A DNA stretch of 64,000 nucleotides from Owenia fusiformis. Lineage: Eukaryota > Annelida > Polychaeta > Sabellida > Oweniidae. Below the pieces are notes generated by a model. It did not search any database and was not told where the DNA came from. It saw nothing but the letters and a program-made list of their open reading frames with translations. The first letter of the stretch is position 1; each line of letters begins with the position of its first letter. Below, in pieces: positions 6,397 through 63,761 of this stretch. The translations under genes were made by a program, and so were the position numbers. Location of the stretch: the NCBI GenBank assembly GCA_903813345.2, contig CAIIXF020000012.1:14812020-14876019 (forward strand). Reading direction: 5' to 3'.

Positions 6397-9300
6397 CTTT
6401 AGCATTTTTCTTGTTGATATTGATGGTTCGTTTATAAGGACTGCCACTGTTAGAGCTCCCAGCTGGGGAGTTAGGGATCAGTTTCTTCTTTATACCAGCT
6501 CCCCTAGTCTTCCTATCTAAGCTTTTACTGTTGGTAAGGTCCCTGGAATAATATGTTTATTCACTGACTTAAACTTTCTAGTTGGATAAAATTGTAATGA
6601 TGTATCCAATTTTTATTATCTTGTTCACAAAAAAAATCTTGTTCACAAGTCATGAGGTTTTTTTATTACCCAACTTACAATGATTCATTATGTTTACAAT
6701 AAAAATCATATTATATTATTTGGTGACACAATTTATCTAGTTTTGTTACCTCATTGTAAACGAGTAGAGACAAGTTTGGTGTTTGTAGTTCTAGTTCACA
6801 GAATTAAGCTAAGTATACCATTTAAAGGCTAGAAAGTATTATACATGTTCTCTAGCACATTAAAAATAGGCTTCATGGAGCAACAAGAAGTTTCAGATCA
6901 CTAGTTTAAGTACAAATGTACATGCACTTTTATGCATAAAAGTTCATACTTTTGAAATGAAGGGGGAGAACATATTTATTTGACACCCTGTAGTTGATCC
7001 CACAAAGGCCCTCATAAATAACGGTAGGTAGAATTGGATGCAGTAATCCAAAATTGTATAAAAGTGGAATTTCGATTATGATTTTATAATAAACATATGA
7101 ACAAACTACAAAGATAAGAACAAGAGCAATAAAAAATGTCCTTGGAAATTTTCTACACTTCAAATGAGCTATTGCTTGTAAAAATTGTAAATTTAGAATA
7201 ACAGGTGGGGCTATTAATTATTGTACATACGGGGTCATGATTTTCTTGGATGGTGTGCTCAATGGTGTGCTTCTTTCTCGTTTTATAGATGTCTCTCCTA
7301 TCCCTTTTAGGTGTGGTAGCAAATAGAAGTACTGAGACACCTAAAATAAAAACATTTAAAACCTCAGGTATAAATGTTCATGAATTCTCAAAATGCCTAA
7401 TATTCTGAATTACTATAATACTACACGTATGATAAATGTACTGTACTTCACGTACAATAAATGTACTGTACTACATGTACAATTAATGTGCTGTGCTACA
7501 TGTAATGTACTGTGCTACATGTACAATTAATGTACAGTAATACATAATTAATGCCCTGTACTGCATGACTATTTCAAAAGGCTTATACATAAACTTAATT
7601 GGACTCAATGTGTATTTTCAGCATTCATTGCTAAATGAAGTCTTACTTTTGATCTTCATAGTATTTCTGGTGGATTGAAAAGTTTTGTTTGAATCTGTTT
7701 TTTCATTGGACACCAAAAACAACTCAAACAGACAACTTCAGAGTTTACAATTATCAAAAAATATTTTTGATCTGTCAATTTTCATATACCAAGTATTTAG
7801 CAATGTCAATGAAAGATGGCGAAAGTCACATGATTCATTCATTTTGATAGAATTGTCAACCATACGCCATCTTTTAAATCAAGAGTTATTTAAAAAACAT
7901 ACACTTTGTGAAAAATGGGCATGTACAACTATGGATCTCTGAACTTCAAATGCAGTGTTCTTTGTGAGTTGTTTTTTCTCATCTCAGTTTTAACCCAAAT
8001 TAAGGTTTATATCAAATCCGATTGAGTGTGTGAGTAACATGTTTCAAAGATAATTCCATCCTTTTTTCTCCAAAAATATACATATTGCGTTTTCTTTATA
8101 TGTACAATATTATAAATGAAAGAATTCTCTATATTCTCTCTGAACTTGTGATGAGATACTACACATAAAGACTACATTTTCCCTCTCAGATTCCAGAGTA
8201 ATGGCTACTCACTATTTTCTTCAGAGATACTTGATCAGTTTGTTCAATACAAGGAGGCAGTAGGCTTTCATCATATCTCTCAAACATATTCAGGAACATA
8301 TCGCACATATGTAAGCTCAGCCAAGCAGGCTCTAGGGTTTGTAGAAACAGTTCTAAGCTGCCAATGTTCTCAGAAAATTCATCTGAAAATAAGCATGTAA
8401 AGTCAATATATGTGAAAAAACATTAAGAATCGCACATATGTAAGCTCAGCCAGGCAGGCTCTAGGGTTTATAGAAACAGTTCTAAGCTGCCAATGTTCTC
8501 AGAAAATTCATCTGAAAATAAGCATGTAAAGTCAATATATGTGAAAAAACATTAAGAATCGCACATATGTAAGCTCAGCCAAGCAGGCTCTAGGGTTTGT
8601 AGAAACAGTTCTAAGCTGCCAATGTTCTCAGAAAATTCATCTGAAAATAAGGATGTAAAGTCATTATATGTGAACAAACATATGGTATCGCACATATGTA
8701 AGCTCAGCCAGGCAGGCTCTAGGGTTTGTAGAAACAACTCTAAACTGCCAATGTTCTCAGAAAATTCATCTGAAAATAAACATATAAAGAGTATATTATA
8801 TTAGGTCAAACATGTTAGGCAACGCACATATGTAAGCTCAGCCAGGCAGGCAGCAGGCTCTAATGTCTATAAAAGCTGTACTTTAGGCGCCTATATCTTA
8901 TAAAGTTCAACTTATGGAGTATGGATTTCTAGACATCGTAACGGTGTTAAAACAAAGCATTAACATGCAAAAGGTCACCACCTGCCATTTGTTACAGACT
9001 CCGAACACTGACCACTGAACAGAGTCCAGAAAAGTTTGGAGACTATAACAATATGTTACCACTTCTGGTGGCGGCATAACATACATGTACTAACTAGTGT
9101 TCTTCTGAGGACAAACTGAAGACAAATATGTTCACACGTGAATTAAGATCAAGTATGCAAGTTATTTAGCCAAGCTGACTATGTACAAAAAGCTCCAAGT
9201 TGCAAAAATATACTTGGTGGTCTCAAAAAAACTAGAAAATTAAAATTGGTGAATATCACTATTTTTAGGACAAGGCATTAACATACAAAATGATTCCAAC

Positions 9301-12300
9301 CACAAAATGCCAAACATAGTCCAAAAAAGTTGGAGACTATAAGTTGGAGACTTTTATTACAGATGCCGAATGCCAACTCCAAGTGCCGAATGCTAAACAC
9401 CAACTGCTGAATGCCAAACACTTGTGGTAGTGACATAAAAACCAGGACTATATTTCTGGTGCGGTTTTAATTATGTAAATGTGTAAGTACACTCACCGAG
9501 AAGCCTGTTCGCAAGCTGTTGTATGAACACCTTCGTCATAATCCCCAATGAATTAAATGAAGAATTCTGATTGGCTGGTTTGTCCACTAGGTGGCAACAT
9601 TGGGCTACCATAGCAACAAGACGCTGAAGAAGTTGTACCAGTGATCTCTGGAAAATGGAAATCATTAAAAGAAAATGTAAAAGTCACAAAGGGCATTTTT
9701 CTGGAATTATCATAATTGTGAATTGCCATCGTAACAGCTTGAAAAACAATTGAAATGTGATCAGCTTTCAATTGAATAATTTAGATTCTCTTGCATACCT
9801 AGTCTAGACCTTAAAGTCCTTTCTCCCATGCCCACCTCAACTCAGAACCTGACCCCTACCCCTTCAAATATTTTTACCGCTACTAGTGCAATGCTTCAAA
9901 TTCACTATTTGTGATAAACACTACATCCATTATCATTTTAAACAAAAAATAATTCAAAAAGAGTAAATGACAAAGTGGAATAAATGAATATACATGAATG
10001 AAATCAGAAACTTGCCTAGCATTGCTCCTTAAATCTTAGCAAACAGCGGCAACCATAAACAGCCGTAGCTTCCCAAAATCGAGAGAAATATGCAGCATAT
10101 AATATAGGGGCATGATGTTGATTTTCTATATTGTTTTTGTGAAGCTACGGCCGCTGTATACCCCGCTGTAGAGCAGAAGTGACGAGACTTTATATTTATA
10201 GCAATTAATGTAATTCTATTGATTATATTGGGATTACCTTAGCTGGGTTATGCTGAACTATTGAGATTGCACTGATCAACTCAATAATCAATTGCTTGAT
10301 GTTTGACCTGAAACTTCCATGTGGTGTGTCACCAGGCCAGAAGACCTGAGCTATGATGCTGCGTCTGTGTGTCTTACGTGGCGTGTCACTGAAAAATCAT
10401 GTTACTTTCATATTTAATCAAGTCACTTTTATTCTTTAAAACATCACTCCATTTCTCAATGATTCATTTTCAATTTTCCATATTTGACTTTTAATTCAAT
10501 ATTGAATTTCTACATGTTCATCACAGATTTTGTGAATATCAAATTTTTCCATTGTTTATAACACATGATTTTACCTCTGTATATAGTGTTGAAAGTCCAC
10601 CTCCAACATGCCGATTATGTATCTCAATATTTGCTCATTATTGTTGGACTTTTGTTCCCCTTTCATAGGACCTTTTTGTTGGGCAATGCAGTTGTCATTC
10701 TCTTCTTTTATAATAACATCATCTTCACTAACTAGGGCTGAACTAAAATGTCATTCAAAGTAAATAATAAATAACAAGTAAAATTACAAGGCATTAACAT
10801 GCAAAATGTCACCACCTACCATTTGTTACAGATGATGAATTGGGCCAATTGTTACAGATGCTGAATGCCGAACCCAAGCAAAAAAATACCGAACAGAGTC
10901 CATAATAAAGTTGGAGACCATAACAATATGTCACCACTTTTTTTTATGTCACTCCTTGTTATAGTGACATAACTAATAGAAAGGACGTTCATGGACCAGA
11001 AAGTTTTTGATAATTATCACTTGTCAATTTCCAATGCATTTCTAGCATGTACATATAGTAAATTAATTGAGGGTTAATAGTGGGCATAATTTGATATCAG
11101 TCTACTTCAATGAAAGCACTCTTTTATAGATGGATAATGGTTGACAGTCACATTGACAAAAACAGTCAGGAATATCATGTTAAAGGCCAAGGGATATAAT
11201 GAGCTAACAGAAGTGGGAATATCCCAGAAATCATTGATGACCCTATCTCTATATGAAGATGAACTTCTAAGAGGTTCATCTTAACATAGAGATGAATTCT
11301 GGGGTATTTTCCTCCCCTTGTGATAGTAGGTAATTAAAGACTTGGGTTCCTCCTATAACTGTGTCCAGGATGTTCATTGGCTTATTTCTGATCACATGAC
11401 ATACTAATTCCTTGTGGGTGAGGATGTTAAAGGAAAAAGCCTATCTATTTTATATCATGTGACCTTAAGTAAGCCAATAAGCATGGGAAAATTCATGAAA
11501 TATGGGGAATAGAATAATACCCTCTAAAGCCCAGTCTCGTACAATGCTGCAAACCTGTGCACTGTCTTTTTTAACACATCTAATTTCTCAAAATAACATA
11601 GCAACACATAATATAACAACAAAAAGCAAAAAAGTATAACTACAACAGTCAAACAATAACAACAGTAAAACATCCATAAAGGAACTCACTAATAGTTAAG
11701 ACTACATTGAAGACATGATCTAAAAGGAGAAATTCAAATTATTGACAATAATTTCATTTATGGCAATGTGAGAGTCGGTTAAGGTTTAGGTATGAACAAG
11801 CCCTAAGAAGACCATTCCCCGGTTATCCCAGGTAAATGTTTCTGGTAAGTTACACTGAACGAAACATCAAGCTTCAGATCTCGAGAGTACGAGATGAGAC
11901 TTCAGACGAGATATCGATAGGATTGTAGTTGGAGGGTTTTCTCCCTAGGTGCGTACAAAATCCATTAACATCAATGTAAGTTATACATTTCGATTCTTTT
12001 TATCGACATTTATCTCTTGTATATACATTTATCTATCGCTGAATCGTTTTGTGAAAGTTTTATCGTAATATTTCACACAAAAAACGCCAGTTTAAAAATG
12101 TTCAAAAAAAAAAAAATTTCAAACACGTTTTATCTTTTGTCTTTATGACTTTGTAGTATTATGTTTGAAGTATTCAATTGATATCTCGTACATATGGTTT
12201 AAAACTTGAATTTATACAAAAGAATTAATTTATTGATGAATATGGACACGTCACATATTACTCGAGTCTCTACCTTACAGCTAGATGTAACTTCATTTAT

Positions 12301-15300: not shown

Positions 15301-18300
15301 ACTTGCAAAATGTTACTCCCGCAACAACGGCAGGCAAGCCCAATTCCCCAACAAAAAGCGCTCAGGTACTGGAGACTCCAAAAAACCCTTCGAGTGAACT
15401 TATGTCAACACAAGTTGTTACTCCAGTTAAACCTGAAAGACTCAGATATTGGCTTGAAGGCTATGAACATCAAGAAGAAACAGTTCATGGTTTCTAGTAC
15501 GGATTTAAATTTCCTCACTCTGATTTGCCAGAACATTACAACATTACTCATGATAATTTGTCATCATTTCTAAGAACCCAGAAGCTCTCAAAAAATTTAA
15601 ACAAAGAGCTTTAAGCTGGTAGAATACTTGGACCTTTTGACCAGCCACCATTTGACATATGTTTGATATTATTTTGCCCTTATTTCTCGTTCCTAAAAAT
15701 CTCCAGGTGAATTCTGTGTTATTCACAACTTATCACATCCCAGAGGCCAATCCATAATGATACTATCCCAGACGAAACTTCTACAGTTAAATATGCAACC
15801 GTACAACAAGCCATAGATATTATAAAACATTTAGGAAAAGGTTGCTTCTTGTGTAAGACTATTAGAAGCTTGTTTGCTCATGGAAATGGCAAAACAATCA
15901 TTGACACTTTATGTAACATCATCCCCTTTACCATTAAGCCAAAACCAAAGAAAGTCTCAAAAAGAGAACTTTTATCTGCTATAGGATTCCTTAGCTACTG
16001 TTGTTGTGTGATTCCTTTCGGTAGATCATTTATTTCAATATCTATTCATCTATCTAAAAAATGAAAGAGCTACATTATAAAATCTTAATCAACACTCCAT
16101 CTATGCAGGATTTATTAATGTGGAAATAGTTTCTAATTCCCTTTAATGGGAAATCTATTTTCCTTACAGAAGAACAAGAGACAAGAGAACAATTGCATCT
16201 TTTACCGATGCTTCTACTACGATAGGCTATGGAGCCGTTTGCAATAATATTTGGTTTAAAGGGGAATGTCCATCAGAATGGAAAGAATTGGACATCAATA
16301 TTCTCGAATTATATCCTATTGTTACTGCTATACTTACATAGGCAAAACTTATGTCTGGACACACAGTTATCCTGCATTCTGACAATGAAGCAGTAGTGAA
16401 CATACCGAAATAAATTTTCTACCAGCAATCAAACGTCCATGCAACTCTTACTTCCTATATATTAAAATGTCTCTTAAACAATATCATGTTCAAAGTGAAC
16501 ACATTGCTGGTATTCATAATTCTGCTGCTGACGCTTTATCTAGAAACAATTTATGTTATTTTTTATCTTTTAGAAGCACTTCAAGCTGCCCAAGCCCCAT
16601 CTACCAGAAAGTCATATGATTTATTAGTACAGTTCAACTCCCAGACAGGTATAGGTGAATTTCCTCTAACCCCAGCCTCTGCTAGCCTTTTTGCAGCACA
16701 TCTTCGTTTAAAGAATCATGCCCCTAATTCATTCAAGTCAGTTCTGTCTGGTATATCATATTTATCATATTTTCACAATTAACAATTTCAAGGATCCCAC
16801 TACTTCTTATGTAGTCTCTCAAATAGTTTCCGGTTTTTGTAAACAAAATCCTAGCATAGACACTAGATTGCCAATCAACACAGCCTTGTTAAAACAAATG
16901 GTTTCTAAAACTTCTGAAGTAGATTTTGACCCTTTTGCTCAAGTCTTGTACAGAGCTATGTTATCTACAGCCTTTTTGGCTTACTAAGAAGTAGTGAGTT
17001 GACAAGTACTTCCGCAGGACACAACTTACAGTTAGAAAGTATTAAATTCTCTCCCGATGAAGCCTTTTTCATTATTACTTTTTCACATTTTAAACATAGC
17101 TCATCTCCTGCTACGATATCAATTAATTCTCAATTACCATCTTGTTGTCCAGTATTACATATGAAGTTGTACCTGAACATATGGTCCTTTAAATCAGGTC
17201 CTCTTTTCATTTATAGAGATGCTCCAGTGAAGACTTCTGTATTTAACAATTTTCTTCACAAACTCTTTGTTCAATGTCAGGTAGATCCTACCTTCTATAA
17301 ATGCCACAGTTTGCGGATAGGCGGAGCTACATGGGCCACAAATCTTGGACTTGATGACTATACTATCAAAAGATTGGGAGATGACATACATACATACATT
17401 AAAAAATATATTAGGTAGACATTTATAAACTCATACTGGTGTCTAGTATGCATTTTTCATTAAAGCCCCAAAGCTGCTCAGACAGGTGTCGAGTATTCAT
17501 TTTTCATGTAAACCCCAAAGTCGGCTCAAACAGGTGTCGAGCATGCAAATTTTAAGTAGCTACTGTTTTTTCTTCATGATGTACTAGAAATTTAATTGAG
17601 ATAAACCCGCACTTTCTGAATTCAAAAATTTTCATTCAATTCTAATTCCTTTATCTTACCTGAGATTGACAGCATATTACATTACATTACATTAATTTGT
17701 CCATCCTTATTTCAGAATTTGCGGATTTACTTTAGTTCATTTCTATGATGTTCTTATATTTTGGTATTCATGTATCGATTTGTGTGTATCAATGAATGAT
17801 TTAACTACTTTCTAATTAATCTTCTTTTCTTTTGGGCTCTCGCGAGAGATCGCGCATGGCCTTATTTTCGCCCAAGAAGATGAGTTGGAGATGGTATTAT
17901 AATATATCCAATTGAGCTAATTAACAGTTATGTCAAAGTGTAAACTCTTGTAGCTAATTAACTTAAATTAGCCATTATTTTCCAAGGTATTGTGTTTTGT
18001 GTTAATTGGCTCAATATTTATTTATATTAATTTTATATTAATAATTTTACATGTACGACTCTCACGGCCATATCTATACTCTACATGAACATAAATTCAA
18101 ATTATTGACAATAATTTCATTTATGGCAATGTGAGAGTCGGTTAAGGTTTAGGTATGAACAAGCCCTAAGAAGACCATTCCCCGGTTATCCCAGGTAAAT
18201 GTTTCTGGTAAGTTACACTGAACGAAACATCAAGCTTCAGATCTCGAGAGTACGAGATGAGACTTCAGACGAGATATCGATAGGATTGTAGTTGGAGGGT

Positions 18301-27300: not shown

Positions 27301-30300
27301 AAGGCCGCCATTTTTCAAGATGGCTGCCATGCGCTTCTTTAATACCTACATTTGTAGCATTATTAATGTCCTTTATAATTTTTTTACATTTAAAACATTG
27401 CTATTACAGTTTTACATAATGCACCTAAATTACTGTAAAATCGGCACTAAAATGGCCGCCATTTTGAAATGAGCGGCCATTTTGAAAATCAGTTTTCGAG
27501 CAGAACTTCTACTCCCATAGGGTATATGTGTACAAAATATGAACAAAATCGGGCGAACGGTATTTGAGTTATTGCCCGGACGGACGGACGGACAGACGGA
27601 CGGACGGACGTACGTACGGACGGACAGACGGACGGACGGACGTACGGACGGACGGACGGACGGACGGACGGAGGCGTTCCCTATATCCCTCCGAATTTCG
27701 TTCGATGGGATAAAAATAAGAAAATAAACAATATATGCCAAAGTCATCAATAATACTGTCAATTTTGACACACATCAAATTATCCGCCATTTCCTCTGAT
27801 TCTGATTGAACGAAATGCTATGGTACTTTCAGACCCTTGTGATTGCTATTTGGATGTGTTTGTTTTTTCTGATTTACTCAAAATCGTGCAAGCAAGGGGA
27901 CGCAAAACAAAGAATCTATTTCGTATGGCCTAAGTTGAAAAATCAATTATCCTTAAATGTCATTGTTAATAAAAAAAGTTAAGACGCAATTTACTTTCCA
28001 AATTGACTGGAGCAGGGGAACCCCTAAACCAATGAAAGAAATGATCATCCAACTTTAATGATCGAACAGCAAACACAAATGTATCCAGGTAACAAAAAAC
28101 AATGGAAAAGATATGACATAATTTTGGTAAGTCCAACTCATTCAATAACAAGTGGTACCATCTCTCACCACAAAAGTAAGACGCAATTTACTCTCCAAAC
28201 TGACTGGAGCAGGGGAACCCCTAAACCAATGAAAGGAATGATCTTCCAACTTTAATGACAAAACAGTAAACACAAATGTTTCCAGGTAACAAAAAACAAT
28301 AGAAAATAAATGACATAATTCTGGTAAGTCCAACTCATTCAATAATAATGAGTGGCACCATCTCTCACCACCTTTAATGATCAAACAGTAAAAACAAATG
28401 TGTCCAGGTAACAAAAAACAATAGAAAATAAATGACATAATTCTGGTAAGTCCGACTCATTCAATGATAACTGGTACAATCTCCCACCACAAATGTCTCC
28501 AAGCAGCGATAAACACTTTTCTGTAAATACAACTAAGATACAGTAGTATGATGATATAATCAAATTTCATTTATACCAAAAAAGCCCAGCTCAGACAATG
28601 TATCATATCATTTCCAAGTTGAGTTTCTCATCAAGGGGGAAACCCCTTGCTTTCCTAATGTATGATAAAAGACCATACTGTTACCTGTCTCTTTGGCAGC
28701 AGCACAAGATAGTAACACTGATACAGAAAACAGAGGAAGGGAAAAGCAGAAACATTACTGTTAGCCATCAAAGTAAGTTAGAAACTTAAATTGTCACTTG
28801 GTACAGTCAAGAAAAGAGAAAATAATTTTAAATGAATCATATTTATTGTGATTGTTAGAATTGATGATAATTATGCTGTTATTGATTTTTAAATAAAATA
28901 AATTAAAATTATCAATTGCTCTCTTTGGATGTATTTCAATAATTGAATTATATAATATCTTATGGTATAAATATATTATCCTATCCCATAAATTAAAAAT
29001 CTTACTGGAATATCTGGTGTTTTTCAATCTCAAATATATGCCATAGTCTCTAATATGAAATTCAAAATATAACTAGAATATCTGATGCTCTCGAGTTGCC
29101 ACTGTCTTTTAATCTCAATGATCTCAATAAACTTGTTTATTTTTCAGTTCAGGTTCATTACTACTGCACTTGAGGAGGACACTAGGATGGGGGTATCCTG
29201 CACAAAAGAGGTAAATATGATAGGCAATAATAGTTTACAATAGAGGCCTGCTGCAGGTCTTTTTAATGCAGGGCTTGGGTCTCTAAAGAGTCTTTTAAAA
29301 ATAAATGTGATTTGTCATACTACAGGACTGCATAAGTGTGTAATATACTGATAATACTATCAAACACTTAGAAATTTGCATTCTAAATTTTTGTAGTATC
29401 TTGTAAGCCCATATTGGTTGTTCTATGTCTAATTTTTATCTTCACTCTATATGTACTGATTCCAATGATGAATACTTACCACAAATTATTACGTAACATG
29501 AACAATTCAAAAATATATTAAGAAATATAAAAAATAGTATTTGCCACTTTTATTTTTACTAGTTGGACACAAACAAAACCCAAGGAGGTCAAGTTGGGGT
29601 AGAAAAACAATGGAAAGTACAAGATACAAACGCAAGACCTAAAAGAGAGAATGTACCACAAAAGAAGAACTCTGTAGATAAGTCTGCACCACCTCCTGGA
29701 CGTCGACCAGAATGACGTTCATTCATTTCAATCAGTGACTTGACTTTAAAAAAGTTTATTGTGATAAACTTAAAAATAGCATAGATAATGGACAAGGCAA
29801 AATTGGAACATTATTTATATAGTATTTATATTATATCTATTTGGCATAGACTTTCATATGAAACATGAATGTACCATCGTATATAAAACATAAAAGAACA
29901 TTTTAAAATATAACAGAGATAGAAAAAAACAAGTTTTACAAGAAATACCCAATAAAGGTTTATCTTGATGAAGTTACTTCAGTATTGTGAAATCATCAGA
30001 AATATTGTTAAGAAGCTCAATTTAGAAAAAACAAACAGACTTTTCATGAATCTATTAATACCTCTTGCCAGTATGTAAACAACTACAGATAAACTATGGC
30101 ATGCTATTGTATCTCATATTTAACTCCAACTGTACATATCATCATATATCTATTTATTTGTATTATTTTTTTATGATTCAATGGCATAGAATAAACGAGT
30201 ATTGTTAAAGTAAAATTGTCTTATGTCAATAAGAAAGCAAAGAACTATACAAGAAATAATCCTATATTGACTGTGGATTTCTAAGAAGATTTCTTGAAGA

Positions 30301-45199: not shown

Positions 45200-48100
45200 A
45201 TGGCCGCAACACCAGAAGATTCAGTTCCCGTCATTGCAGTTACAGCTGCTGTAGGTGCCGTCATCCTACTCTTCGTCCTATTATGTAACATTGGGAAGAA
45301 GTCTGATAACCAAGAAGAGGAATCTGGTAAGACTTTATTTTATATCCTGGGTCAAAATCACCCAGTTACACTCCCCTCTGAGCATTACAAATGATTTTAT
45401 ACAGTTTTAGTTACAGCTCTCATTGGTTCTCAAGGTTAGGTAGTTTGAATGTTGAATGAACATGTTATTTACCGTCAGAATATAATTTCAGTATTTCATG
45501 TTACACATTCTGATTGGATATAAGTAGTTCTCTAAATTAGAGGGTGAAGATTAAGTGAAGCTCTTACAAAGGGTATTGTTTTGATACTGCCCATGAAGTA
45601 TGTCAGTGTGGTTTAGATACAATGAATAAATGGACATAATATGCTTATTTCTGTACAGGGGTATAGCCGGGATCTAAAATTAGGTGAGGCAAATAATAGA
45701 CGAGGCAAAAATGAAATGGAGGCAATATAATACTATCAATCAACTTCATTTTCACAGTTTCTATTCACTATTATTTTCTGAAAGATTTTGGTGAGGCAGT
45801 TGACGCACTTGCCTCATTTCTCAAATACATGTACATTGAATTTAAAATATTGCTTGATTGATCTTACAGATAAAAATGAAAAGGTAAAAGAATCTAAACC
45901 AACAAAGGCCCAGCCACAGAAGAAGAAGACTGTTGTCAAAACTCGACCAGAGAAACGCCAAGCCTTCACACATCCCTGGCTGTCATGCACCTTAAAGGGT
46001 CATAGTTCACCGATTCTAGGAATGGATTTTAGTGCAAATGGGAAATACCTGGCTTCCTGTTCTGAAGGTAAAAAATAATTGATTGGTAGATTAGGCCATA
46101 AGAAGTAGATTTTTTGTTTTGCATCCTGGCAAAATCCAAATCATGCAAGGATACAAGGAAAACAAACACAAACTTAAGAAAAAACACAAACTTGTTTGCT
46201 GAGAAATGTATGCAATTACTCAGATGCGAGTAGGTAGTTACCAGTTACACCACCAGGTGGCTGATTCGGGGGAAATAACATGGCAGGGTATTACAAAATC
46301 CCCTTAAACTTGAATATTCATCAGTTTTAGTGGTTCACTTTTCATATTACCCGTATGTATGTGATAGTTATATGAATTAAAATTTGTCCAGCAAAAGAAA
46401 ATATTAACTGCCCAACACAAGAAAAGATATTTCACTTTTTGTGGTTTTACAACATGGGGTCTATAGGGGATCTCCCCGACCTAGAAGTCACATTTTCAAA
46501 GAAAATGAAATTTTCAAAGTTGATAAACCCTTTTCAAAACCACATTTCTAGATGTAAATTTACATGTAGATTCCAAATATGACATCAGATTGACTGAATT
46601 GTGAATTTTTAATGGCGTAAATCAAGATTATTTCTAGTCGCATCTGGGATATTTATGGACATAAAAAGGGACGACATACCAATTTGCATTGATTACAAAC
46701 ACATATCTATACATTTTATACAATATATTTAAACATAGCTATTATTCAAGGGTAAAAAATAAGAAAATACCTATGCGGGAAGTGCATATCTCTTATTCAA
46801 GGCAAAAGGTTATATTTTCAAAATCCATTTTCTTACTTGAATATGTGATGTGTTAAAATCCATGTGCTGTTATTTACATTTTAATTTCAGATCGTACAAT
46901 TTTGATGTGGAGTGTCAAAGAATTCACGCAGAAAGAACACAAGTAAGTGAAATTCAATAAACTATAAAGTAAGGTCTTGTTATTGTTTTTTTATGTAACC
47001 ACCAGAAGTGGTGACATATTGTTATAGTAACTTTTTGTGGATGGTGTTTGGCAGTCGGTGTTTGGTATTGTGGATGGTGTTCGGCAGTCGGTGTTTGGTG
47101 ATTGGTGTTCAGCAGTCACTGTCTGTAACAAATGGCAGGTGGTGACATTATGCATGTTAATGCCTTGTTTGTTATTATTGAGAGTATTTTGTTAAACTTA
47201 TATATTTCCTATACTCAATGCATCTAATATGGAATCTTGGCTCTTGGACAGAAATACCAGTAAATAGTTACAATTTTTGCATCATATTGCTTTGCTATGA
47301 GATTTTTCCTCCTTATAGAAATATTCATTTACTTTTTTATTTTTTATTTTGCAGGTCAGTAAGATCAAATGTTGAGTTGGATCATGCTACAAAAATAAAG
47401 TTTAGTCCAGACACCAAGTAAGTAAAACTGATAATGCAGTAATTGTAATTCGGCAATATTCAGTTCCCTGAATTTTCCCTCCTTCATAACATCGGTGACT
47501 GTTTAATTTCGTGAATTTAGGGAGAAATGTATCAAAATACCATAGGATAACATAGTAAATTGGTCATAGTCAAAGATGAAAATTGGTGATCTTGTCGATA
47601 CTCTACAGGTTGTATGGAAAAAAGCAGTACATTACAAAATCTGTACTTCCAAGGCCTTTGTGATTAACCTATAGCAATGAGAACATTATATAAAGCAGTA
47701 TATTACAAAAACTGTACTTTCAGGGCCTTTGTGATTAACCTATACAATAAGAACATTATATTAAGCAGTATATTACAAAAATTGTACTTTCAGGGCCTTT
47801 TTGATTAACCTTTACAATCATGAGAACCTTATATAAAGCAGTATATTACAAAAACTGTACTTTCAGGGCTTTTGTAATTAACCTTTACAATGAAACATTA
47901 TATAAAGCAGTATCGTACAAAAACTGTACTTTCAGGGCCTTTGTGATTAACCTATACAATAAGAACATTATATTAAGCAGTATATTACAAAAATTGTACT
48001 TTCAGGGCCTTTGTGATTAACCTATACAATGAGAACATTATATAAAGCAGTATATTACAAAAACTGTACTTTCAGGGCTTCTGTGATTAACATTTACAAT

Positions 48101-51100
48101 GAGAACATTATATAAAGCAGTATATTACAAAAACTGTACTTTTAGGGCCTTTGTGATTAACCTATACAATGAGAACATTATATAAAGCAGTATATTACAA
48201 AAACTGTACTTTTAGGGCCTTTGTGATTAACCTATACAATGAGAACATTATATAAAGCAGTATATTACAAAAACTGTACTTTTAGGGCCTTTGTGATTAA
48301 CCTTTACAATGAGAACATTATATAAAGCAGTATATTACAAAAACTGTACTTTCAGGGCCTTTGTGATTAACCTATACAATGAGAACACGCTGAGAGTGAT
48401 GCGGATTGGCAAGAAACCAGATGGTTCTCTTGGGAACATAAATGGAACATTTGATTTCCCTAAGGTAAATTCATATTTGTATTAGTCATAATTAAATGGT
48501 TTTATATTTTCATAGTCTCATTTTGTATTATTTATTAAATGCAATGTTTGTATTGATATGTTTATGAAAACAAAAGAATGTTAAAAAGTGAAAGTTAATT
48601 ACTTGATGTTTTTAAAAGCAGGCAATTTTTTTAGTTGTTTTATTATTTTTTATTTTTACTACAATCTTCCCTTTTTCGGGTATATGTGTATTATATCAAA
48701 GAAATATGGTATATATCATCCTTCATTCAAAGGACTTCATTTATTTCTAAATTCAGCCCTTCATGCAAGGTCAGGTAGTTTCATATACATATCAGGTAGT
48801 ATATATACATAAACAGTACTTATGTTAGTCTAATTCTTTCAGAAATTTACAGCAGAGATCCTCAACATTGGTATAGCCAGCTCAGGAAGATTCATCATGG
48901 CTTGCACTAAGGACACATCCATGTATATTTATGATCTTAAAGGTAACACAAAGTTATTTTGTAATTGTTTATCATTCAGATGTTTTACAAATTGTAAAGA
49001 TAAGTTCAGTTGCTGTTTGTCCAAAATGTGTAAAGAAATATAAGATAAATTTCAGCAAATAAGAAAAGAAACTGTAAAACCTGTCAAGCGACACACCTCT
49101 ATTATTTGCATCTAAAAATTGAACACTTCAAAGTTTTTGGTGACATATTTATCAAACCTCTATTAGTGAAACACCTCCTATATAAGTTGCACACTTTTTT
49201 AGTGAAACCAAGGGTGTTTCACTTACTGAGATTTTACTGTTGTGAAATCCCCAACCGTAAGAGAACAAAATATAATTAATTTTTTCATTTTCCAGGGGAA
49301 GTGTTAGCTACTATTAATACTAACCAGCTGACCAACAGTTATGGTGCAGTTTCTCCATGTGGAAGATTTGTAGCCAGCTCAGGTCAGTATTATGCACATA
49401 GTTGTCAACTTCTGACAAATATTTGAAAATGTATGATTTTCTTTCTTCATGGGTGTTTAGGTTGTTTCTGGTTTGTAGTTCATACATGCCGCAATTTGTG
49501 TGTTTTTTCGTGATATCATCTACATATTTAATGTGATGAATAATACACATGTACATTTAAAACCAAAATAATAAATATTATTCTTTGAAATTTTGGTAGT
49601 ATATTCACGACATCTATCTATTTCACATATATTCCGTGTTTTTCACCCTGACCCACAAGGGCCGTGAATTTGGGGGGTGGGAAAACGGAAATTTTCATTA
49701 ATTTTGAGATCTTTATACTCAAATGAAAGGCAAATTAGAATAGATTGCAAATATTGTATATAGTGTACATATTTGGTCAATCTGCTTGATAATCAATATA
49801 TTTTTCAATAAATATGCTTTTTTCCAGGTTTCACCCCAGATGTTAAGGTCTGGGAAGTGATGTTTGACAAATCAGGAACTTTCAAAGAAGTTAAGAGAGC
49901 ATTTGAATTAAAAGGCCATAGGTCAGGTGTATATTCATTTAGCTTCTCAAGTGACTCAAATAGAATGGCCTCTGTGTCTAAGGATGGCACTTGGAAACTG
50001 TGGAATACATTCAGTAAGTATTAAGTTTACACTGGAGTAAACAGGTCATCTTGAGGGTTACAGCCTTGTGCATAAGGCTGAATAGGTGAAATAAATATAT
50101 AGTTTTGATGCTCATAAGATCTAAATAAGCTAAAGAGTAGCTTTTATTACCCTCAGAGATTCAATATGAAATTAAGGCACTTATGAAAGTATGAAATTTC
50201 AGCTGAATTGAAGAATATTGAAGGAAGTTAGAGCATATAGTGCATTACTTCTGGGACAACCCTCGTATATGATACAATTATTGCTTTTTTGATTGGGTAG
50301 CTTGAATTTGATCAACAGTCACAATTCTGAATTGGTAAAACTAGGTCTAAGCTCTAACACATAGTGTAGATGAAGCTCTCTTTTAAGAAGCACAACCGAA
50401 TTATAAGAGATTGATAGAGATCAATCTAGTACAGAATTGGAGAAGAAAACTTAAAGCACTGCCAAATTCCAACAATTTACAGAATTTCTTTGTTTTCCAG
50501 TTGAATATGCAAAGGGACAAGATGCTCAATGTATACAAACAGGAACATATGAGAATAACTCAGGGCATGCCCTCATTGCCCTCTCTCCAGATGCGAGGGC
50601 TGTTGCCATAGCAACAACATATACAATAAGCGTCTATAACGCAACCAATGCTCAGCAAGCCCAAGTCATAACTGACGTACATGCAAGTAAGTTCAAAAAG
50701 TTTCAGATTGGAATAAGTACAGTTTCGGAATATTATTCTTCAGTTATATCTTTTGCAAATCCAATTTCATACTTACGCAAGACTGTATGTACAAAAAAAT
50801 GTTTTTTCTTTCAGTCCCTATTACAGAGTTAAGTTTTGACAATAACAGTAAATACTTTGTATCCACGGGTGACAAACAAATCCACGTTTTCCACAACATC
50901 GTCGGTTACCAGGCAACCATTGAAGATCTCACAGAAAAGAAGAAGACAGCATCAACCAATGCATTAAGAGAAAGACTTGCTCAGCAGATCGAGGATGCTA
51001 AGTAAGCTTTTAAAAATCACTATTCTAGGTAGAACCTGTGTATTTGAACAATTTCTGTACTGGCCTAAATTGTTATTTGAAGATGGGTGTTCCATGCAGA

Positions 51101-51808: not shown

Positions 51809-51834
51809 CATGGTCTATTAAGTAATTGGCCGAT

Positions 51835-54172: not shown

Positions 54173-54455
54173 CCTGATCTGTTTAGGGAAATTAAAGAGA
54201 CCAAGATTATATTGACTAGAATTAATGACGTCATACTTTGGAAGCAGAAATTATTGCTGACATCAAACTTAGAATGGCTCGCTGTTACAAAAGTTTTAAC
54301 CATTTTAAGCTCCTAACCACATTGAAAAGAGTGATACAACTAGCTGCTATAACAATATATCCGCAATTTCTCAAGATGACATAACAAGATAAGACAAGAT
54401 TGTGACTCGTACCCAATCATGACAAAACAACAAATCATTTTTTATAAATTGTATT

Positions 54456-54461
54456 TTTATT
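54456..54461 (-). terminator. Possible distal polyadenylation signal for rabaptin
   Basis: TTTATT on the plus strand (AATAAA on minus) is the clearest I saw downstream of the stop at 57074, but it is 2.6 kb away and would put the minisatellite in the 3'-UTR. Confidence 0.2.
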
Positions 54462-55244
54462 GCACAAGGTTAATTTATTTCAAAGTCCATAAATGTGCAA
54501 TGTACATTGTAACTGTACAGACAACAGTAGCATTTGTGGAGAAAGCATGTTACATATAATACCAAGATTTCTTTAGTCTCTTTGGAAAAGACCACAATGG
54601 TCGTGCTTTCAAATGAAAAATATGGTGGAAAAGAGTGAAATCAGCAAGGAATAAAGTAAACAGGCATGAAGTCAGTTATTTAAATTGTATAGAAATGCAA
54701 TAAAATCCGGACGTTCATTCAAATTTTAGAGAAAATGAGTGGAATCAACATGATCATATTTAGATCATTCTAAACCTCCCATTCGTTTGTCATATTATAG
54801 CAATTACATGACATGTATGAAATGTGTGTCATATTTAATGATATTTTAGGAAACTCAACACAATTTTGAAAAGGTTTGAACAAGTATAAAAAAAACAACG
54901 AGGTTTGTGTGCAATTGGCCATGCAGTTACTCAAAATAGATCTCTATTTTTGGCATTGCCACTCATTATCTGGTAGATCCAGCCATATATAATTTAACAT
55001 ACATGTACAAATACAAGCAGACGTTATGGTACTTAGCAATTTAGCTGTGTCTAATACTGAACATTGCACCACCGACAGTCCTTGCCTTTTCTTTAAACAT
55101 TTAAAACTTCAGTGCAGTAATACCTCATATAACCTGTATGACATGTGCAAATTGAGGGACTTCATGTTGCAAGTTCTAATTTTTTAAAAACTTGCTGTAT
55201 ATTAAGACATGGGTTACTGCAGCGACTTGGCCACTTAGGTTATG

Positions 55245-55381
55245 CCTTGGTCACATTTACTCTGATTTTCACTATGGCGCCTGGCCGATTGAGTATTTTG
55301 TTCAAAATTGAATACAATATTGAACAGAACACTCAATCGGCCAGGCGCCGGCCGATGGATCGGAGCATATGTGACCAAGGT
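55245..55381. mobile_element. 137-bp perfect-ended foldback (MITE-like)
   Basis: Ends CCTTGGTCACAT are inverted, and the inner arms GGCGCCTGGCCGATTGAGT and ACTCAATCGGCCAGGCGCC are exact reverse complements around a short AT-rich loop. Confidence 0.85.
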
Positions 55382-55432
55382 ATTAGGTAGGTTAGAGTGA
55401 GATAACTTATCAGTCAAGAATAGGCTGTTATT

Positions 55433-56108
55433 CAAGTACAATAGAATGTAATTCAAGTACAATAGGATGTAATTCAAGTACAATAAGATGTAATTCAAGG
55501 ACAATAGGATGTAATTCAAAGACTATATGATGCAATTCAAATACAATAGGATGTAATCCAAGTATAATAGAATGTGGTTCAAGGACAATAGGATATAATT
55601 CAACTACAATCAGATGTAATTCAACGGCAGCAGGACTGTAGGATGTAATTCAAAGACAATATGATGTAATTCAAATACAATAGGATGTTATTCAAGTACA
55701 ATCAGATGTAATTCAACAACAGCAGGGTGTAATTCAAGGACAATATGATGTAAATCAAATACAATAGGATGTAATTCAAGTACAATAAGATGTAATTCAA
55801 TGACAATAGGATGTAATTCAAGTATAATAGGATGTAATTCAAATACAATAGGATGTAATCCAAGTATAATCGAATGTAGTTCAAGGACAATAGGATGTAA
55901 TCCAAGTATAATAGAATGTAGTTCAAGGACAATAGGATGTAATTCAAGGACAATAATATGTAATTCAACGACAATATGATGTAATTCAAATACAATATGA
56001 TGCAATTCAAATACGATGGGATGTAATCCAAGTATAATAGAATGTACTTCAAGGGCAATAGGATGTAATTCAAGGACAATAAGATGTAATTCAAGTACAA
56101 TATGAATA
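55433..56108. repeat. ~21-bp minisatellite, over 30 copies
   Basis: The unit is ACAATAGGATGTAATTCAAG with variants. Minus-strand frames of 153 and 183 residues (LHPIVLE or LNYILLY repeats) arise from the period and are not supported as genes. Confidence 0.93.
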
Positions 56109-57073
56109 TGCAATCCAAGAACAGTAGTTTGCTCCCAATGGTATAACAATAACCATGTACATATTTTTCAAATAAATATAGATAAACTGATAATAATTTC
56201 AAACTGTCGTGACAGTTTCTAACAAATTGATATACAGCACTTTTTAAACCCAACTAAGGTTCAACTGCATACAAGTTATATAAAATGCTTTAAATAACTC
56301 ATATTCTATCTATTAGTGATACTAAATATAAATTCTATTTTGTTTGATATTTAATATAATTGATACACAAATCTCAATTCTTAATATAACGTTTAAGATT
56401 TTAATTTTGATTATCACAGAATCGATAACATACAGGATTAGTTATTCAGGAACAGTCTTGTGAGTATAAAGCTCCTAGATATTCAAGATTCTAATTCTAA
56501 CTCGCATCTGGTGAAAGGGGGCAATGAGGGCATGCCCTGACTTGTTCTGTGAAAGGGGGCCTAGCTTCAAAGCTTCATATATGCTACATTTTTCTATCTT
56601 CAATTTTGCTGTAGTTAGATATGAGATGGAGGAAATATCCAGAATTCATTTATGGACCTAGCTCTGTGTAAATATGAACCTCTATAGGTTTATCTATATA
56701 TGGAGATGGGTTCATCTATGAAGTCTGGGATGTTCCCTCTCTTTTAGATATGCATGAGTGTTGAATCAAAGCCCTGAACTTTGATACCCTGGATCTCCAG
56801 CCACAGTACAGTGCTGTGGTGGGTGCAGACTGCAGAGAATGGGAGTCTTGAGTCAAGACTGGTTTGACAATAATAGGTCATATGTACTCCACATCTGTAA
56901 GTATCCACTTCATTTGTATCCGCATCTGTGTGTATCCACGTCTGTGTTTTTCAATGCCACATGTATTGAATAAATAAAAATTCATCACACTCCTGGCAAT
57001 TTTTGAAATTAATTCCAATTTTTGAAATACCATTACTAGGAATATGATATATTACACTAAAGTGCCCAGGATA
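56109..57073. other. Probable 3'-UTR or flank of rabaptin
   Basis: AT-rich, without recognised motifs, apart from a GTATCCACATCTGTGT-type short repeat near 56880-56945. Confidence 0.35.
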
Positions 57074-60000: not shown

Positions 60001-63000
60001 CCAGATTTTGACTCTAGTTTGCTCTTGTATCTTTAAAAATTTCAAATTGAACAAATAAGCAGTTTTCCTTATGACAAGATTTATATGGCGACTTTCTCAA
60101 AGTACACTATTGGCCAAAAATGTCACAGTTGTTATTTTTGAAAATATGACAATTAATTCATAGTAAAAAAGGCATGAATTTCCAAGTGTGAAAGTTTGAA
60201 CTATGGTGGTTTTTATCTTATATTTTACTTGAGCCTAATATCAGTCTGCCATCATGCATGCTGACAAGTATTTAAAATTACTGAAAATAGCACAGTGATA
60301 TGATTCAGACTAATTAGTGTTAAACTTAATTATTTCTTACCAGCTGATGCTGTAGATCTGTACAAGATTGTATATACTGCTGTCGTAGCTCTGTCATGAA
60401 CTTCTCCGACTCATAAACTTTGGTGACTAGAGTTGATATCTGAAAGTTTCAATAAATATTCCACATATTTATTTATCTATTTATTTTATTAAAGTGTCAT
60501 GAGTTATAAAACATATAAACTACAATTAAAACACCCCAGGCCGACAACGACCTATAGGACACTTATAACATTCCTTATATATACATGTATTTTTTCACAT
60601 AAAGAGTTCTATGTCGGTCAATTTTAGGCTATTTTTCTATGTCGGCTTAAGGGTCAATTTTAGCCCATTTTTAGCAGGTAGGGTTCATTTAATAGTCTTA
60701 CTTATACTTCATACACAATGATGATTATATCTATTCATGGGATTTCTTGGTTTATGCTACTTAATAATCTCATTTCTTGCATTCCTACATATCCTAGAGT
60801 GTTGAAAGCAGTTTAAATTTTGAACAATCTAATTTCTTGCATTCCTACAAATCCTAGAATGCTGAAAGCAGTTTAAATTCTGAGCAATCTCATTTCTTGC
60901 ATTCCTACACATCTAGAGTGTTGAAAGCAGTTTAGATTTTTGGCTTTGGCAATCAATTGCATGTCTATGTTAACTTAAGGAATAAATTTATGTATAATAA
61001 AATAAAAAATAAAAAAAAGTTTAAATTTTGAATATTTCACTCACTTGCTAGGTCTTAATATAAAGAGGGTGATTGTAAATAAAGAAGATTCAAGTGCCTA
61101 CTTGTGCTTGCGCATCCTCTGCTACATTTTGCAATGTATTTTCCAGCTCCTCTTGGTATTTCTTCTGGTTTTCCAGTGTGGCTTTCTCCTGTGACAATTG
61201 TTTGTTTAAAGTCTGTGCACTGGACTGAGATTCCTGGGCATTCTCTTGAACACTTTGTAGCTGGGCTTCATAGTTCTTGCACATGTCACATGGTCTTCCT
61301 AATTTCTCTCTTGCAGCCTTCACCTGAATGAATTAGATGTGGAACACAAAATTGTACGTTGTTTATCATTAATAAGGGGTATGTTAGTGCATGGAAAATG
61401 AAATGCCCGGATAAGTAAACAAAATGAAGTTGTAATGCCTAATCTGGATCTAAACTTTTTTCTGTCATTTTTGCCTTCACCTGAACTCAATTAAATTTTA
61501 CAAAATTACATCACTAGCAGAAATAGTTTTGAATATGATGCTTTATTTAGTTTGTGCCTGAACTACCAGAAACAAAGGTGAATTACATACAAATGAGCTT
61601 ACATCTTGTAGAGAAATATAGAATAAACACAAAAACTAGAACGAGGCCGATAGGTGCTCCACCTATCGGCAGAACTCAAAATTACATTTCTGCATTGATT
61701 ACACTGAGGAACACAAAATTGTAGGTTGTTTATTAATAAAATGGATACTTTATAGCTTCAACTCTTTTTTACTCTGATTTTCAATTTTAAACCATGGCTG
61801 ACCACAGCTACAGTGTTATGAACCAATTGGACTATTCTTTTTAAAGGGTTACTGTCCACTTACCTCCTGTTGAAGCATCTCCCATTCTTTATCACTCACC
61901 AGGCGGCGCCCCGTTAGGTGTGGAATGTCATCCATTTTGGATTTGGCACTAGCGAGCAATGACTGACTGACCTCATACTCAGGGCTTGGATCTAAAAACA
62001 TATATGAGAGTAGACATTCACTAAATTTAGGGTCAAACTCCAGCTCTTGCTCCAGTCTTGCTGGAGTATATACGAAAGTAGTATCATTCACTGAATTTAG
62101 GGTTGAGATTTAGTTCTTGCGTCAAAGTTAAGCTTGGGCCATGATTCATATACATATGCTGCAATTATATATACAGCAATGAGCCTGTGTTGTGACAATT
62201 CCTTTGATATATTCAGATTGTATTCTGCTAAGGAGGTGTTCAACTTAAAGAGGTTTATTTCACATTAAGTAACAGGACTTTGAAGTGTCCTACTTTTGGA
62301 AATCTCTTTTTAATGAATGCAGAGACTTGATTAGGAGTAGTATTCTTGAAAAATTAATATTCACAGTATTGATACAGTGTACTGATCGGCACAAGATAAA
62401 AAGCATTCAACTGAATTTATATTTATACAGTTTTTCCATCACCCTTACGATTTAGTATGATTTTTTTATTCAATATTAAGCACTTAAGTGGTGATATTAT
62501 TTTACCAACTCCATATAGCTAAATGCAAACTACTTTATAGGTATGTCACTCCTAAAAGTCTAATATTTTGATCTGATGGGCACATCATGATGAGCATCAG
62601 TGCAATGCCAAATTGATTCTGTTGTCCTTTCTCCCATAAAACAACTCATCCAGAAAATACATGTATAAGAGAATACAATAAGCAGAAACCTTTGAAAATC
62701 TTTCCCAGCCCCATCCATTACATACCAGCTATAGCCCTGTGTTGAGCATCAGTGAGACCAGGCACAGAGATGTATTTATCAGGACTCATTCTCATGCCAT
62801 CTACCTCTGAGAGAGACCGCGTGTCATGAACTCCACTGTCGAGCAGGAAATCATCATGCCGGGAATATTCTGACCCTAGTAATAAGCAAGCAACCAGAAA
62901 CATCAGATGGGTTCGTTTTTATTAAGTAGCATATTAATTTTATAAGTAAGAAATTACACTGAAAAATCATATATATGACCAAACAAAATTTAAATGTTGA

Positions 63001-63567
63001 AATAGTATTAAGGGGGTTAGTATTTTAATTTTGCGATTTGGCGAACATAGATCTTTTGAAATGATCAATAATTTTTTATTATTATCACTTTGATTGGTAG
63101 ATTGTTTAGTAAGTTTTAGTATGTGCTTTTTATATGCAGTATTTTTGAAGCTATTCAATTTGTTAATCTACACGCATGGAGAATGGGTCATTGGGAGTCT
63201 GTAAATCATTTTTCTTCATTTTATACCCCCCTGATGTATGTTATGTTTTGAGGTGTCTTCTGTCTTACTCATCTCAACAAATGTTTGCTGTAAAATCATA
63301 CCAAACTGATAGCTCGCAAAAATAGGGCAGAAAATATAGGCTCTTATTCTAATCCATACCAAGCTTGCTTTTATGAGTAGCCAAAGCTATTATTATTTCT
63401 TGTTGCATTATGGGATACTCACCAGACGAAGATTTCTTCATGATATCTGATGGATCTAGTTCGGTATCACTGAGTTTCATTAGATCTTCTGACTTAGTTG
63501 ATGCAATAGAGGTCTTAGAAGCCACTTTCTTTAGACCCAGCTGGTGTACAGGTTCATTATTGGAATG
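57074..63567 (-). CDS. RABEP1: Rabaptin-5-like Rab5 effector with C-terminal FYVE finger (5' end outside window)
   Basis: Exons in transcript order: 63567-63423, 62875-62726, 61991-61864, 61323-61102, 60439-60341, 59913-59773, 59270-59165, 58809-58726, 58446-58280, 58061-57945, 57534-57424, 57241-57074, about 545 in-frame codons ending TAG. Most is coiled coil. Strong rabaptin signatures are CDMCKNYEAQLQSVQ, LQEENDSLVGK, LLNYREEIIKAKVAKEHIEE and NSEAVQRDFVKLSQSLQ, the last in the C-terminal Rab5-binding region. After IQLEKIRQGENEVRW the protein continues into a FYVE domain: CENC, RRKHHCRHCG, CNECC, KVCDVC, giving four Cys pairs, the basic RxHHCRxCG motif and a Trp before it. Vertebrate rabaptins stop before this domain. 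Rabaptin links Rab5 and Rabex-5 on early endosomes; the FYVE finger would add PI3P binding. The name marks the family, not RABEP1 versus RABEP2. Confidence 0.92.
59271..59772 (-). other. GC-AG intron in rabaptin
   Basis: The donor reads TTGGAG|GCAAGTCA and the acceptor CCATTGCAG. Phases (0/0) and homology on both sides (LPNNLE to EMQLLLLNY) leave no nearby GT donor that would fit. Confidence 0.8.
60770..60940. repeat. ~64-bp tandem repeat, three copies
   Basis: Copies of CATTTCTTGCATTCCTACA then CTAGAGTGTTGAAAGCAGTT in a rabaptin intron. Confidence 0.88.
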
Positions 63568-63761
63568 CTGCAATTGAAATGAAGAGAACATTATCAGGTA
63601 TTGCCGTCTGCAATTTGCAATGCATTTTGGGATATACAAAGTCACTTTCTTTAGACCCAGCTGATGTAAAGGTTCATTATTGGAATGCTGCAATTCAAAT
63701 GAAGAGAACATTATCAGGTATTGCCGTCTGCAATTTGCAATGCATTATGGGATACACAATG
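63523..63761 (-). repeat. 120-bp duplication including a rabaptin acceptor and exon start
   Basis: 63523-63642 and 63643-63761 repeat with few changes. The left copy holds the real acceptor (CAATTGCAG at 63568) and the first ~45 exon bases (HSNNEPVHQLGLKK). The right copy has the same acceptor at 63688 and exon start (HSNNEPLHQLGLKK). Because 120 is a multiple of three and no stop intervenes, use of the outer acceptor would add 40 in-frame residues. Confidence 0.93.

Follow-up and report, generated by a model that had tools for sequence, protein, structure and literature searches.

Tandem arrays across exon borders in the annelid Owenia fusiformis, probably mirage-type minisatellites found at acceptors as often as random placement would put them there

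The window, that is, the whole 64,000-nucleotide stretch of Owenia fusiformis DNA that was analysed (GC content 34%), contains three genes in which a tandem array lies across a 3′ splice site (Table 1). The rabaptin gene matched the Pfam family Rab5-bind, and the gene that we take to be TBL2 (the name also used in the original prediction) matched WD40, the only family that Pfam gives for it; both matches were over the cut-off. The SLF1 gene matched BRCT_TopB1_SLF1 with an E-value of 0.0029 and 18 bits, under the curated cut-off of 27.

Table 1. Coordinates of the arrays and of the intact exons that they overlap (positions in the window).
Feature	Position	Strand	Description	Basis
SLF1 tandem array	8300..8851	-	period 129 bp, 4 AG-acceptor copies + degenerate fragment	TRF
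SLF1 degenerate partial copy	8808-8851	-		genome search
SLF1 copies, first exonic bases	8769, 8640, 8511, 8382	-		units read
SLF1 intact exon	8213..8382	-	attached to last array copy	gene finder
TBL2 tandem array	47621..48387	+	11 copies, unit 69-73 bp, mostly 70	TRF + units read
TBL2 intact exon AFVINLYNENTLRVMRIGKKPDGSLGNINGTFDFPK	48356..48464	+		gene finder
Rabaptin tandem array	63519..63759	-	120 bp x 2	TRF
Rabaptin intact exon	63423..63567	-	attached to last array copy	gene finder

All three arrays were confirmed with TRF and by direct reading of the letters, and the units read at SLF1, TBL2 and rabaptin each consist of the local intron tail followed by the exon head, as had been predicted. 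The predicted periods of 129 and 120 bp were reproduced, while the 71 bp given for TBL2 was replaced by a variable unit. The exonic part had been put at 45-80 bases, a range that holds for rabaptin (49 bp, 63519-63567) but not for SLF1 (83 bp, 8300-8382) or for TBL2, where the first 32 bp of the exon lie inside the array. At TBL2, ten decoy copies precede the intact one and the AG is in register in nine of them. The rabaptin decoy exon would start at 63687; its 120 bp equal 40 codons and its frame is open, so that splicing to the decoy would lengthen the protein by 40 residues in frame. Where the SLF1 exon ends downstream is uncertain: either the donor is at 8213 or the open frame runs on to about 8189. 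A simple, sequence-only gene finder, with a training set made up of other exons from the same genome, placed the acceptor on the last copy in all three genes (8382, 48356 and 63567).

In all three cases the copy furthest downstream is the one that forms part of the intact exon. This has no value as a clue to mechanism, because whenever a tandemly duplicated stretch includes an acceptor, only its last copy can stay attached to the body of the exon; for donors this is the first copy. Genome searches in which only the best candidates were scored reported five matches for the SLF1 unit, all at the SLF1 locus, 11 for the TBL2 unit, all at the TBL2 locus, and matches at its own locus only for the rabaptin unit. 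A transposable-element origin was rejected, since each unit matched its own locus only in these searches, and the three units are local in origin.

Placement was compared with chance by rotating the arrays of the window, which make up 10.2% of its sequence, against the exon positions. Arrays span three of the 32 annotated acceptors where 3.05 are expected (P = 0.62), and under stricter array limits (period at least 30, score at least 150) the three stand against 2.41 (P = 0.46). The 32 exons were chosen from 51 predicted ones by dropping 16 short SLF1 exons and two TBL2 exons, joining two rabaptin exons and extending one TBL2 exon; two of the dropped exons (28169-28203 and 27995-28023) lie inside an array. 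When the full set of 51 is used, arrays are found at five acceptors (4.81 expected, P = 0.54) and two donors (4.83 expected, P = 0.098), and with the 32 exons at no donor (3.07 expected, P = 0.022, or 0.062 at the stricter limits). Other arrays lie in introns away from exons and elsewhere in the window. As tandem arrays, the three far exceed what chance would give; their placement at three acceptors does not, and the observation that three of three assembled genes carried one, read in the original prediction as an excess, has a probability of about 0.10 when calculated from the genome-wide sample described below.

The sample comprises 276 exons taken from chaperonin, kinesin and myosin genes across the genome; their splice sites were located by score, and the hits may include some terminal exons or stretches of two exons. 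For Cpn60_TCP1, 58 of 60 matches were used (the two on C3, a long open-frame gene, were excluded), for kinesin 128 of 144 (16 copies in an array of 18 were excluded) and for myosin all 92, and the resulting 278 hits were reduced to 276 by removal of two array copies (L048:3103 and L034:761). After checking by hand, arrays were retained at 16 acceptors and seven donors, that is, at 23 of the 276 exons, with two to eighteen copies in a row, which bears out the prediction that the process is recurrent in this genome. The automatic counts had been 17 and nine; the check dropped one acceptor where the array stops about 5 bp short of the site (L079) and two donors, one inside an acceptor array (L048) and one with about 1 bp of exon (L146), while a 30 bp x 2 array with 4-5 bp of exon (L029) fell under the 10 bp limit. 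Arrays were present in 17 of 70 sampled gene clusters, and clustering in particular genes was not significant.

Acceptors in the sample were hit at the rate that rotation predicts (16 against 15.9 expected, P(≥16) = 0.54). Donors were hit less often (7 against 15.9, P = 0.002), a deficit that may be overstated since hand checking was confined to the observed counts and did not extend to the null: counted automatically, the figures are 9 against 15.8 (P = 0.015), or under stricter limits 9 against 13.8 (P = 0.062). At the same stricter limits the automatic count of acceptors is 16 against 13.8 (P = 0.28), and the chaperonin genes alone, with three acceptors and four donors, have no acceptor excess. 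Across both samples, arrays cover 6.7-8.3% of the 400 bp before acceptors, 5.3% of the first 40 exonic bases, 1.9% of mid-exon positions, 3.0% of the last 40 exonic bases and 4.7-7.1% of the 400 bp after donors. Because coverage is also low in the first 300 bp after donors (4.7-5.1%, against 7.8-8.3% in the last 300 bp before acceptors), the donor deficit extends into the intron and could have a regional cause. Taken together, placement at acceptors is indistinguishable from random, and arrays are fewer at donors and inside exons.

These counts bear on whether a process directed to acceptors, such as slippage in polypyrimidine tracts or a splice-site repair pathway, makes arrays form at 3′ splice sites, or close to them, in preference to other places. 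The acceptor-donor difference is consistent with such a process, whether taken directly (16 against 7, binomial p = 0.093; 19 against 7 with the window added, p = 0.029) or against rotation (two-sided P = 0.024), as are the higher array content of introns before acceptors than after donors and the rise of coverage in sample 1 from 6.2% at -400 to 9-10% in the last 120 bp. However, the asymmetry stems from the shortage at donors and acceptors are at the random rate, and arrays also occur away from exons. We therefore consider an acceptor-aimed origin unlikely. The 3′-side asymmetry of the original prediction survives in a weaker form, as a scarcity of arrays at donors and in the adjoining part of the intron; counted against random placement in the window and in the 276 exons, the acceptor excess does not.

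Tandem repeats are often misassembled, and an amphioxus paper, in its available text, calls one comparable array in a genome draft apparently aberrantly assembled. Nevertheless, 21 of the 23 arrays compared contain copies with at least one difference from the real one (the exceptions are L041 and L104), unit length and copy number vary between loci, the same structure recurs across the sampled gene clusters, and there is no N in the window or in sample 1. An origin of the arrays in errors of assembly or sequencing is thus very improbable.

Most decoy acceptors still look competent. Across 26 arrays the AG or GT is kept in 90 of 99 decoy sites (78 of 88 in 23 arrays), including an undercounted 0 of 4 at L081, where the donor was set one base off, and 52 of the 90 that keep it equal or exceed their own authentic site in score. 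Donors in the stubs are weaker: for 17 of the 19 acceptor arrays, even the strongest donor-like site among the decoys ranks under the 10th percentile of the 227 sampled donors; the exceptions are a chaperonin stub (L034, 35th percentile) and L086 (15th). Use of the nearest decoy acceptor would lead to a stop or frameshift in 15 of the 18 arrays that could be scored, no decoy having been found in the nineteenth (L148), and the frame is open in the other three, which would gain 40 residues at rabaptin, 32 at a chaperonin exon (nearest copy) and 14 at a kinesin exon. The period leaves a remainder of 0, 1 or 2 on division by three in 9, 11 and 6 of 26 arrays, indicating no codon constraint.

Where decoys and the real copy differ in exonic sequence, the difference was synonymous in 38 of 81 cases, against 20.9 expected (p = 6e-5); part of this excess can be put down to divergence of the real exon, which is under constraint. 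In one kinesin array, six of the eight coding variants that differ among its 17 decoys are synonymous, which suggests that the decoys have been copied from the real exon or are under some constraint themselves. Inspected by eye for signs of concerted evolution, TBL2 copies 1 and 4 have variants in common and the kinesin decoys have common variants in patches. The junctions of 18 mostly two-copy arrays fell into six with 0-8 bp of shared sequence at the breakpoints, six with a shortfall of 1-12 bp and six with a shortfall of 15-75 bp, as raw counts.

If the decoys were functional alternative acceptors or exons giving regulated or in-frame protein variants, the strength kept by many decoy sites, the synonymous lean, the three open frames and the donor-like site of the chaperonin stub would all find a place. 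We regard such a function as improbable, even more so than an acceptor-aimed process, given that most decoys would lead to a stop or frameshift, unit lengths ignore the codon frame and the stubs in most acceptor arrays are without a good donor.

The explanation that we favour, and consider probable, is that the arrays are minisatellites of the type called mirages, produced by genome-wide tandem duplication and turnover that is random with respect to gene structure and is tolerated at splice sites. Ordinary tandem duplications of roughly 30-260 bp would arise throughout the genome, expand and contract like other minisatellites and sometimes fall across a splice site. When an array falls on an acceptor, the most downstream copy would remain attached to the remainder of the exon, and the upstream copies, each a decoy acceptor plus an exon stub without a good donor, would amount to added intron that is spliced away. 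Such arrays may persist as one intact splice site and exon are left and splicing would still locate the real acceptor. Exon definition is the likely reason, the acceptor being paired across the exon with the downstream donor; that stubs mostly have no good donor although their acceptors look competent fits this proposal. Decoys in donor arrays would be direct competitors of the authentic donor, and arrays of this kind are scarcer. What is inferred here from sequence is that the last acceptor is used, that exon definition operates, how the duplications form chemically and what part selection plays.

As many as 17 near-identical decoy acceptors precede a real one. It is possible, and we put this forward tentatively, that the arrays constitute a natural experiment in splice-site choice, present on several per cent of the sampled sites, tolerated at acceptors as if neutral and less so at donors. 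If the last acceptor were always used, choice would be decided by position relative to the downstream donor, as in exon definition, and not by site strength, and mirages would form a plentiful standing source of new introns and isoforms beyond the chordates. If the sampled rate applied genome-wide, there would be thousands of natural constructs with competing near-identical acceptors, opening the rules of acceptor choice and duplication-based intron gain to testing by RNA-seq. The rate of 23 in 276 sampled exons in an annelid would mean that animal genomes rich in minisatellites produce mirages generally.

Arrays of mutually exclusive exons, such as those of muscle myosin heavy chain, also consist of tandem copies of exon sequence within a gene. 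The Owenia units that were read differ in containing one exon end at short, regular spacing; a test for complete exons, with an acceptor and a donor in each copy, found, in the units of the three window arrays and of the kinesin array, exon start and intron tail only. Intron gain by tandem genomic duplication, as in the Rogers model and in cases from Drosophila and potato, likewise involves tandem duplication of splice signals in genes, to judge from the portions of that work available. Here, in contrast, an existing boundary is duplicated, the copies apparently stay intronic and no new intron is shown.

The closest counterpart, contrary to the expectation that no named phenomenon would apply, is the mirage minisatellite of amphioxus, described, in the available parts of the reports, for Adh3, the globins BflGb6 and BflGb9, troponin C and PGBD5. 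Those accounts give units of tens to about 160 bp, copies 81-100% identical in BflGb6, haplotype length differences and RT-PCR. Undisturbed mRNA splicing, length variation between haplotypes or somatic cells and concerted evolution within a cluster also count among the characters of mirages. As far as the accounts go, the two systems are alike in that the unit contains an intron end and an exon end, that 5′ and 3′ exon borders, and so donors and acceptors, are both affected (seven donors and 16 acceptors in Owenia), and that many but not all copies keep AG or GT. A limited literature search found no report of mirage-type arrays in annelids. The Owenia arrays differ in that the host is an annelid and not a lancelet, and in that the sample provides a rate, where the amphioxus accounts, in the text available, concern single genes and give none. 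The Owenia genome, with 12 large contigs, contains matches to annelid haemoglobin linkers; a COX1 match, looked for in G000 so that mitochondrial gene order could serve as a lineage marker, was not found. The phenomenon is already known as mirages, and what is new is the annelid host, the sampled rate and the donor deficit.

Each of the three window genes had been predicted to carry a tandem array whose unit takes in an acceptor together with the first part of the exon behind it, the intact exon standing farthest downstream. All three arrays were confirmed by TRF and by reading on the gene strand. In SLF1 an intact ...TTTTCAG acceptor is present in four copies, and a degenerate fragment lies farther upstream; TBL2 contains 11 copies of 69-73 bp, 10 of which precede the intact copy (9/10 with an AG in register); rabaptin contains two. 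The exonic part of the unit measured 83 bp in SLF1, 49 bp in rabaptin and 32 bp in TBL2, so that the 45-80 exonic bases originally predicted did not hold for TBL2. A simple gene finder whose training set was other exons of the same genome placed the acceptor on the last copy in each case, although its SLF1 chain includes many short exons that are doubtful. Pfam searches identified WD40 in the gene that we take to be TBL2, Rab5-bind in the rabaptin gene and BRCT_TopB1_SLF1 in the SLF1 gene (E 0.0029, below the curated cut-off). When searched against the genome, each array unit gave reported matches at its own locus only, and the arrays therefore look like home-grown duplications rather than dispersed elements.

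Arrays and other features of the window and of sampled genome regions (bare positions refer to the window; C numbers are contigs of the same genome, L numbers sampled regions around exons)
Feature	Position	Strand	Period (bp)	Predicted acceptor
SLF1 array	8300-8851	-	129 (TRF)	8382
TBL2 array	47621-48387	+	70 (TRF)	48356
Rabaptin array	63519-63759	-	120 (TRF)	63567
Rabaptin exon, donor side	63402-63422	-		
Open frame	16930-17415	+		
32-copy repeat	55419-56102		21	
L048, kinesin	G000:C2:23265959-23270205		159	
L085-L087, one gene	C6:40.70-40.71 Mb			
L110-L112, one gene	C8:26.50-26.54 Mb			
L034-L036, one gene	C11:0.12-0.14 Mb			
L167-L169, myosin	G000:C9:37986009-37994334			

Separately, a short motif is common to both ends of the rabaptin exon, whose donor side (GTGAGTATCCCATAATGCAAC) is similar to the start of the array unit (GTGTATCCCATAATGCATTGC). 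Elsewhere in the window, an open frame containing HSLRIGGATWATNLGLDDYTIKRLGD, which looks like part of a mobile-element tyrosine recombinase, had no Pfam match at E <= 1. A 21 bp repeat (x 32, 78% matches) has long open frames on both strands because its unit is a multiple of three.

Placement was compared with chance by rotation, in which arrays are shifted along the sequence against fixed exon positions. Window arrays with period >= 20 and score >= 60 were counted (10.2% of the window), and a splice site was scored as inside an array if at least 10 bp of array lay on each side. For 32 exons hand-picked from the gene finder's 51, three acceptors were inside arrays versus 3.05 expected (P(>=3) = 0.62), indicating that the three matches are expected by chance, and no donors versus 3.07 expected (P(0 donors) = 0.022). 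All 51 predicted exons gave 5 acceptors versus 4.81 (P 0.54) and 2 donors versus 4.83 (P 0.098).

The same TRF test was then applied to a sample of the genome (498 Mb, of which 12 contigs of 32-62 Mb make up ~477 Mb; PMC9977687 reports 505.8 Mb in 12 chromosome-scale scaffolds for Owenia fusiformis). Exons of three conserved families, chaperonin, kinesin and myosin, were located by Pfam search and cut with 400 bp per side (167 regions, 230,164 bases); splice sites were predicted and array counts hand-checked. Arrays spanned 16 acceptors and 7 donors in 276 exons and were found in 17/70 gene clusters: 3 acceptors and 4 donors in 57 chaperonin exons, 10 and 3 in 127 kinesin exons, and 3 and 0 in 92 myosin exons. 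Rotation within regions predicted 15.9 of each. Arrays therefore span as many acceptors as random placement would give (P(>=16) 0.54) and fewer than half as many donors (P(<=7) 0.002; 9 by unedited automatic counts, P 0.015; 9 versus 13.8 expected at stricter array limits, P 0.062). The recurrent process proposed earlier is upheld as to recurrence (23/276 exons); acceptors show no excess, and the cause of the deficit at donors is uncertain. Clustering of arrays by gene was non-significant over all genes sampled; three single genes (L085-L087, L110-L112, L034-L036) each have three sampled exons with arrays, at acceptors and donors.

Over the two sets of sampled regions taken together, arrays covered 6.7-8.3% of the 400 bp upstream of acceptors, 5.3% of the first 40 exonic bases, 1.9% of mid-exon, 3.0% of the last 40 exonic bases and 4.7-7.1% of the 400 bp downstream of donors (overall, 8.6% outside exons versus 2.8% inside). 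Read most simply, duplication would be random, and selection would then act little at acceptors, more at donors and strongly inside exons. However, the intron after donors is also array-poorer than the intron before acceptors, and the donor deficit may thus be partly regional or mutational. The downstream place of the intact copy, previously taken as a clue to the process, is uninformative: tandem duplication across an acceptor necessarily leaves the farthest-downstream copy joined to the remaining exon, and across a donor the first, a matter of geometry, not biology.

Junctions were read in 18 mostly two-copy arrays, both boundary and intronic. Six have 0-8 bp of common sequence at their breakpoints, although a region edge truncates one of these. 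Another six are 1-12 bp short, which we take for short filler or for divergence, and the last six are 15-75 bp short, with divergence too high to interpret. These junctions fit a putative origin by microhomology-mediated or slippage duplication, which would have been followed by unequal exchange.

Decoys, the array copies of a splice site other than the intact one, retain AG or GT at 90/99 sites in 26 arrays, a lower bound, because the scoring of donor array L081 was displaced by one base. Of those retained, 52/90 score at least as high as their own authentic site, indicating that local sequence cannot always specify the acceptor to the cell. Ranked against 227 sampled donors, the strongest donor-like site within the decoy copies did not reach the 10th percentile in 17/19 acceptor arrays; exon fragments behind decoy acceptors would thus seldom have a donor, the condition that exon definition would need to ignore decoys. 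Splicing to the nearest decoy would introduce a stop or shift the frame in 15/18 acceptor arrays scored, while the other three, in rabaptin, a chaperonin exon and a kinesin exon, read open. Unit lengths disregard codon frame (period mod 3 = 0, 1, 2 in 9, 11, 6 of 26 arrays).

At the kinesin acceptor of L048, 18 units stand in a row, each with 127 exonic bp, and the last continues into the remaining exon. All 17 decoys would hit a stop, and 6 of 8 coding variants differing among them are synonymous. Across 23 arrays, exonic differences between decoy and real copy comprised 38 synonymous (20.9 expected, p 6e-5), 41 replacement and 2 nonsense changes; part of this excess can come from changes on the real exon, which is under constraint. 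A bias is seen as well in variants carried by only some of the decoys (11/18 synonymous), driven by the kinesin array (6/7), which suggests that its decoys descend repeatedly from the coding copy. There may also be some constraint on decoys.

Two further observations came from the genome. Twelve myosin-motor exon copies (HMM ~18-84, spacing ~330-1940 bp) lie in one myosin gene and have the look of a large cluster of mutually exclusive exons rather than an array of the present kind. Eryth_link_C, the linker family of annelid extracellular haemoglobin, has three matches over cut-off inside 15 kb on C6, in keeping with an annelid genome.

The original prediction knew of no named phenomenon, but the arrays match the mirages of amphioxus, minisatellites whose unit spans an exon-intron border. 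The amphioxus literature cites mirages in Adh3 and describes them at an acceptor of BflGb6 and at a donor of BflGb9; RT-PCR suggests normal splicing, haplotypes differ in length, the mechanism is called unclear and a role in intron gain is proposed. PMC3902484 adds PGBD5 and troponin C. Among the matches listed from open-licence papers, none was evident as a report of mirages outside lancelets. The structural features tested agree between the amphioxus mirages and the present arrays, which represent a familiar type of structure in a lineage that is probably new for mirages.
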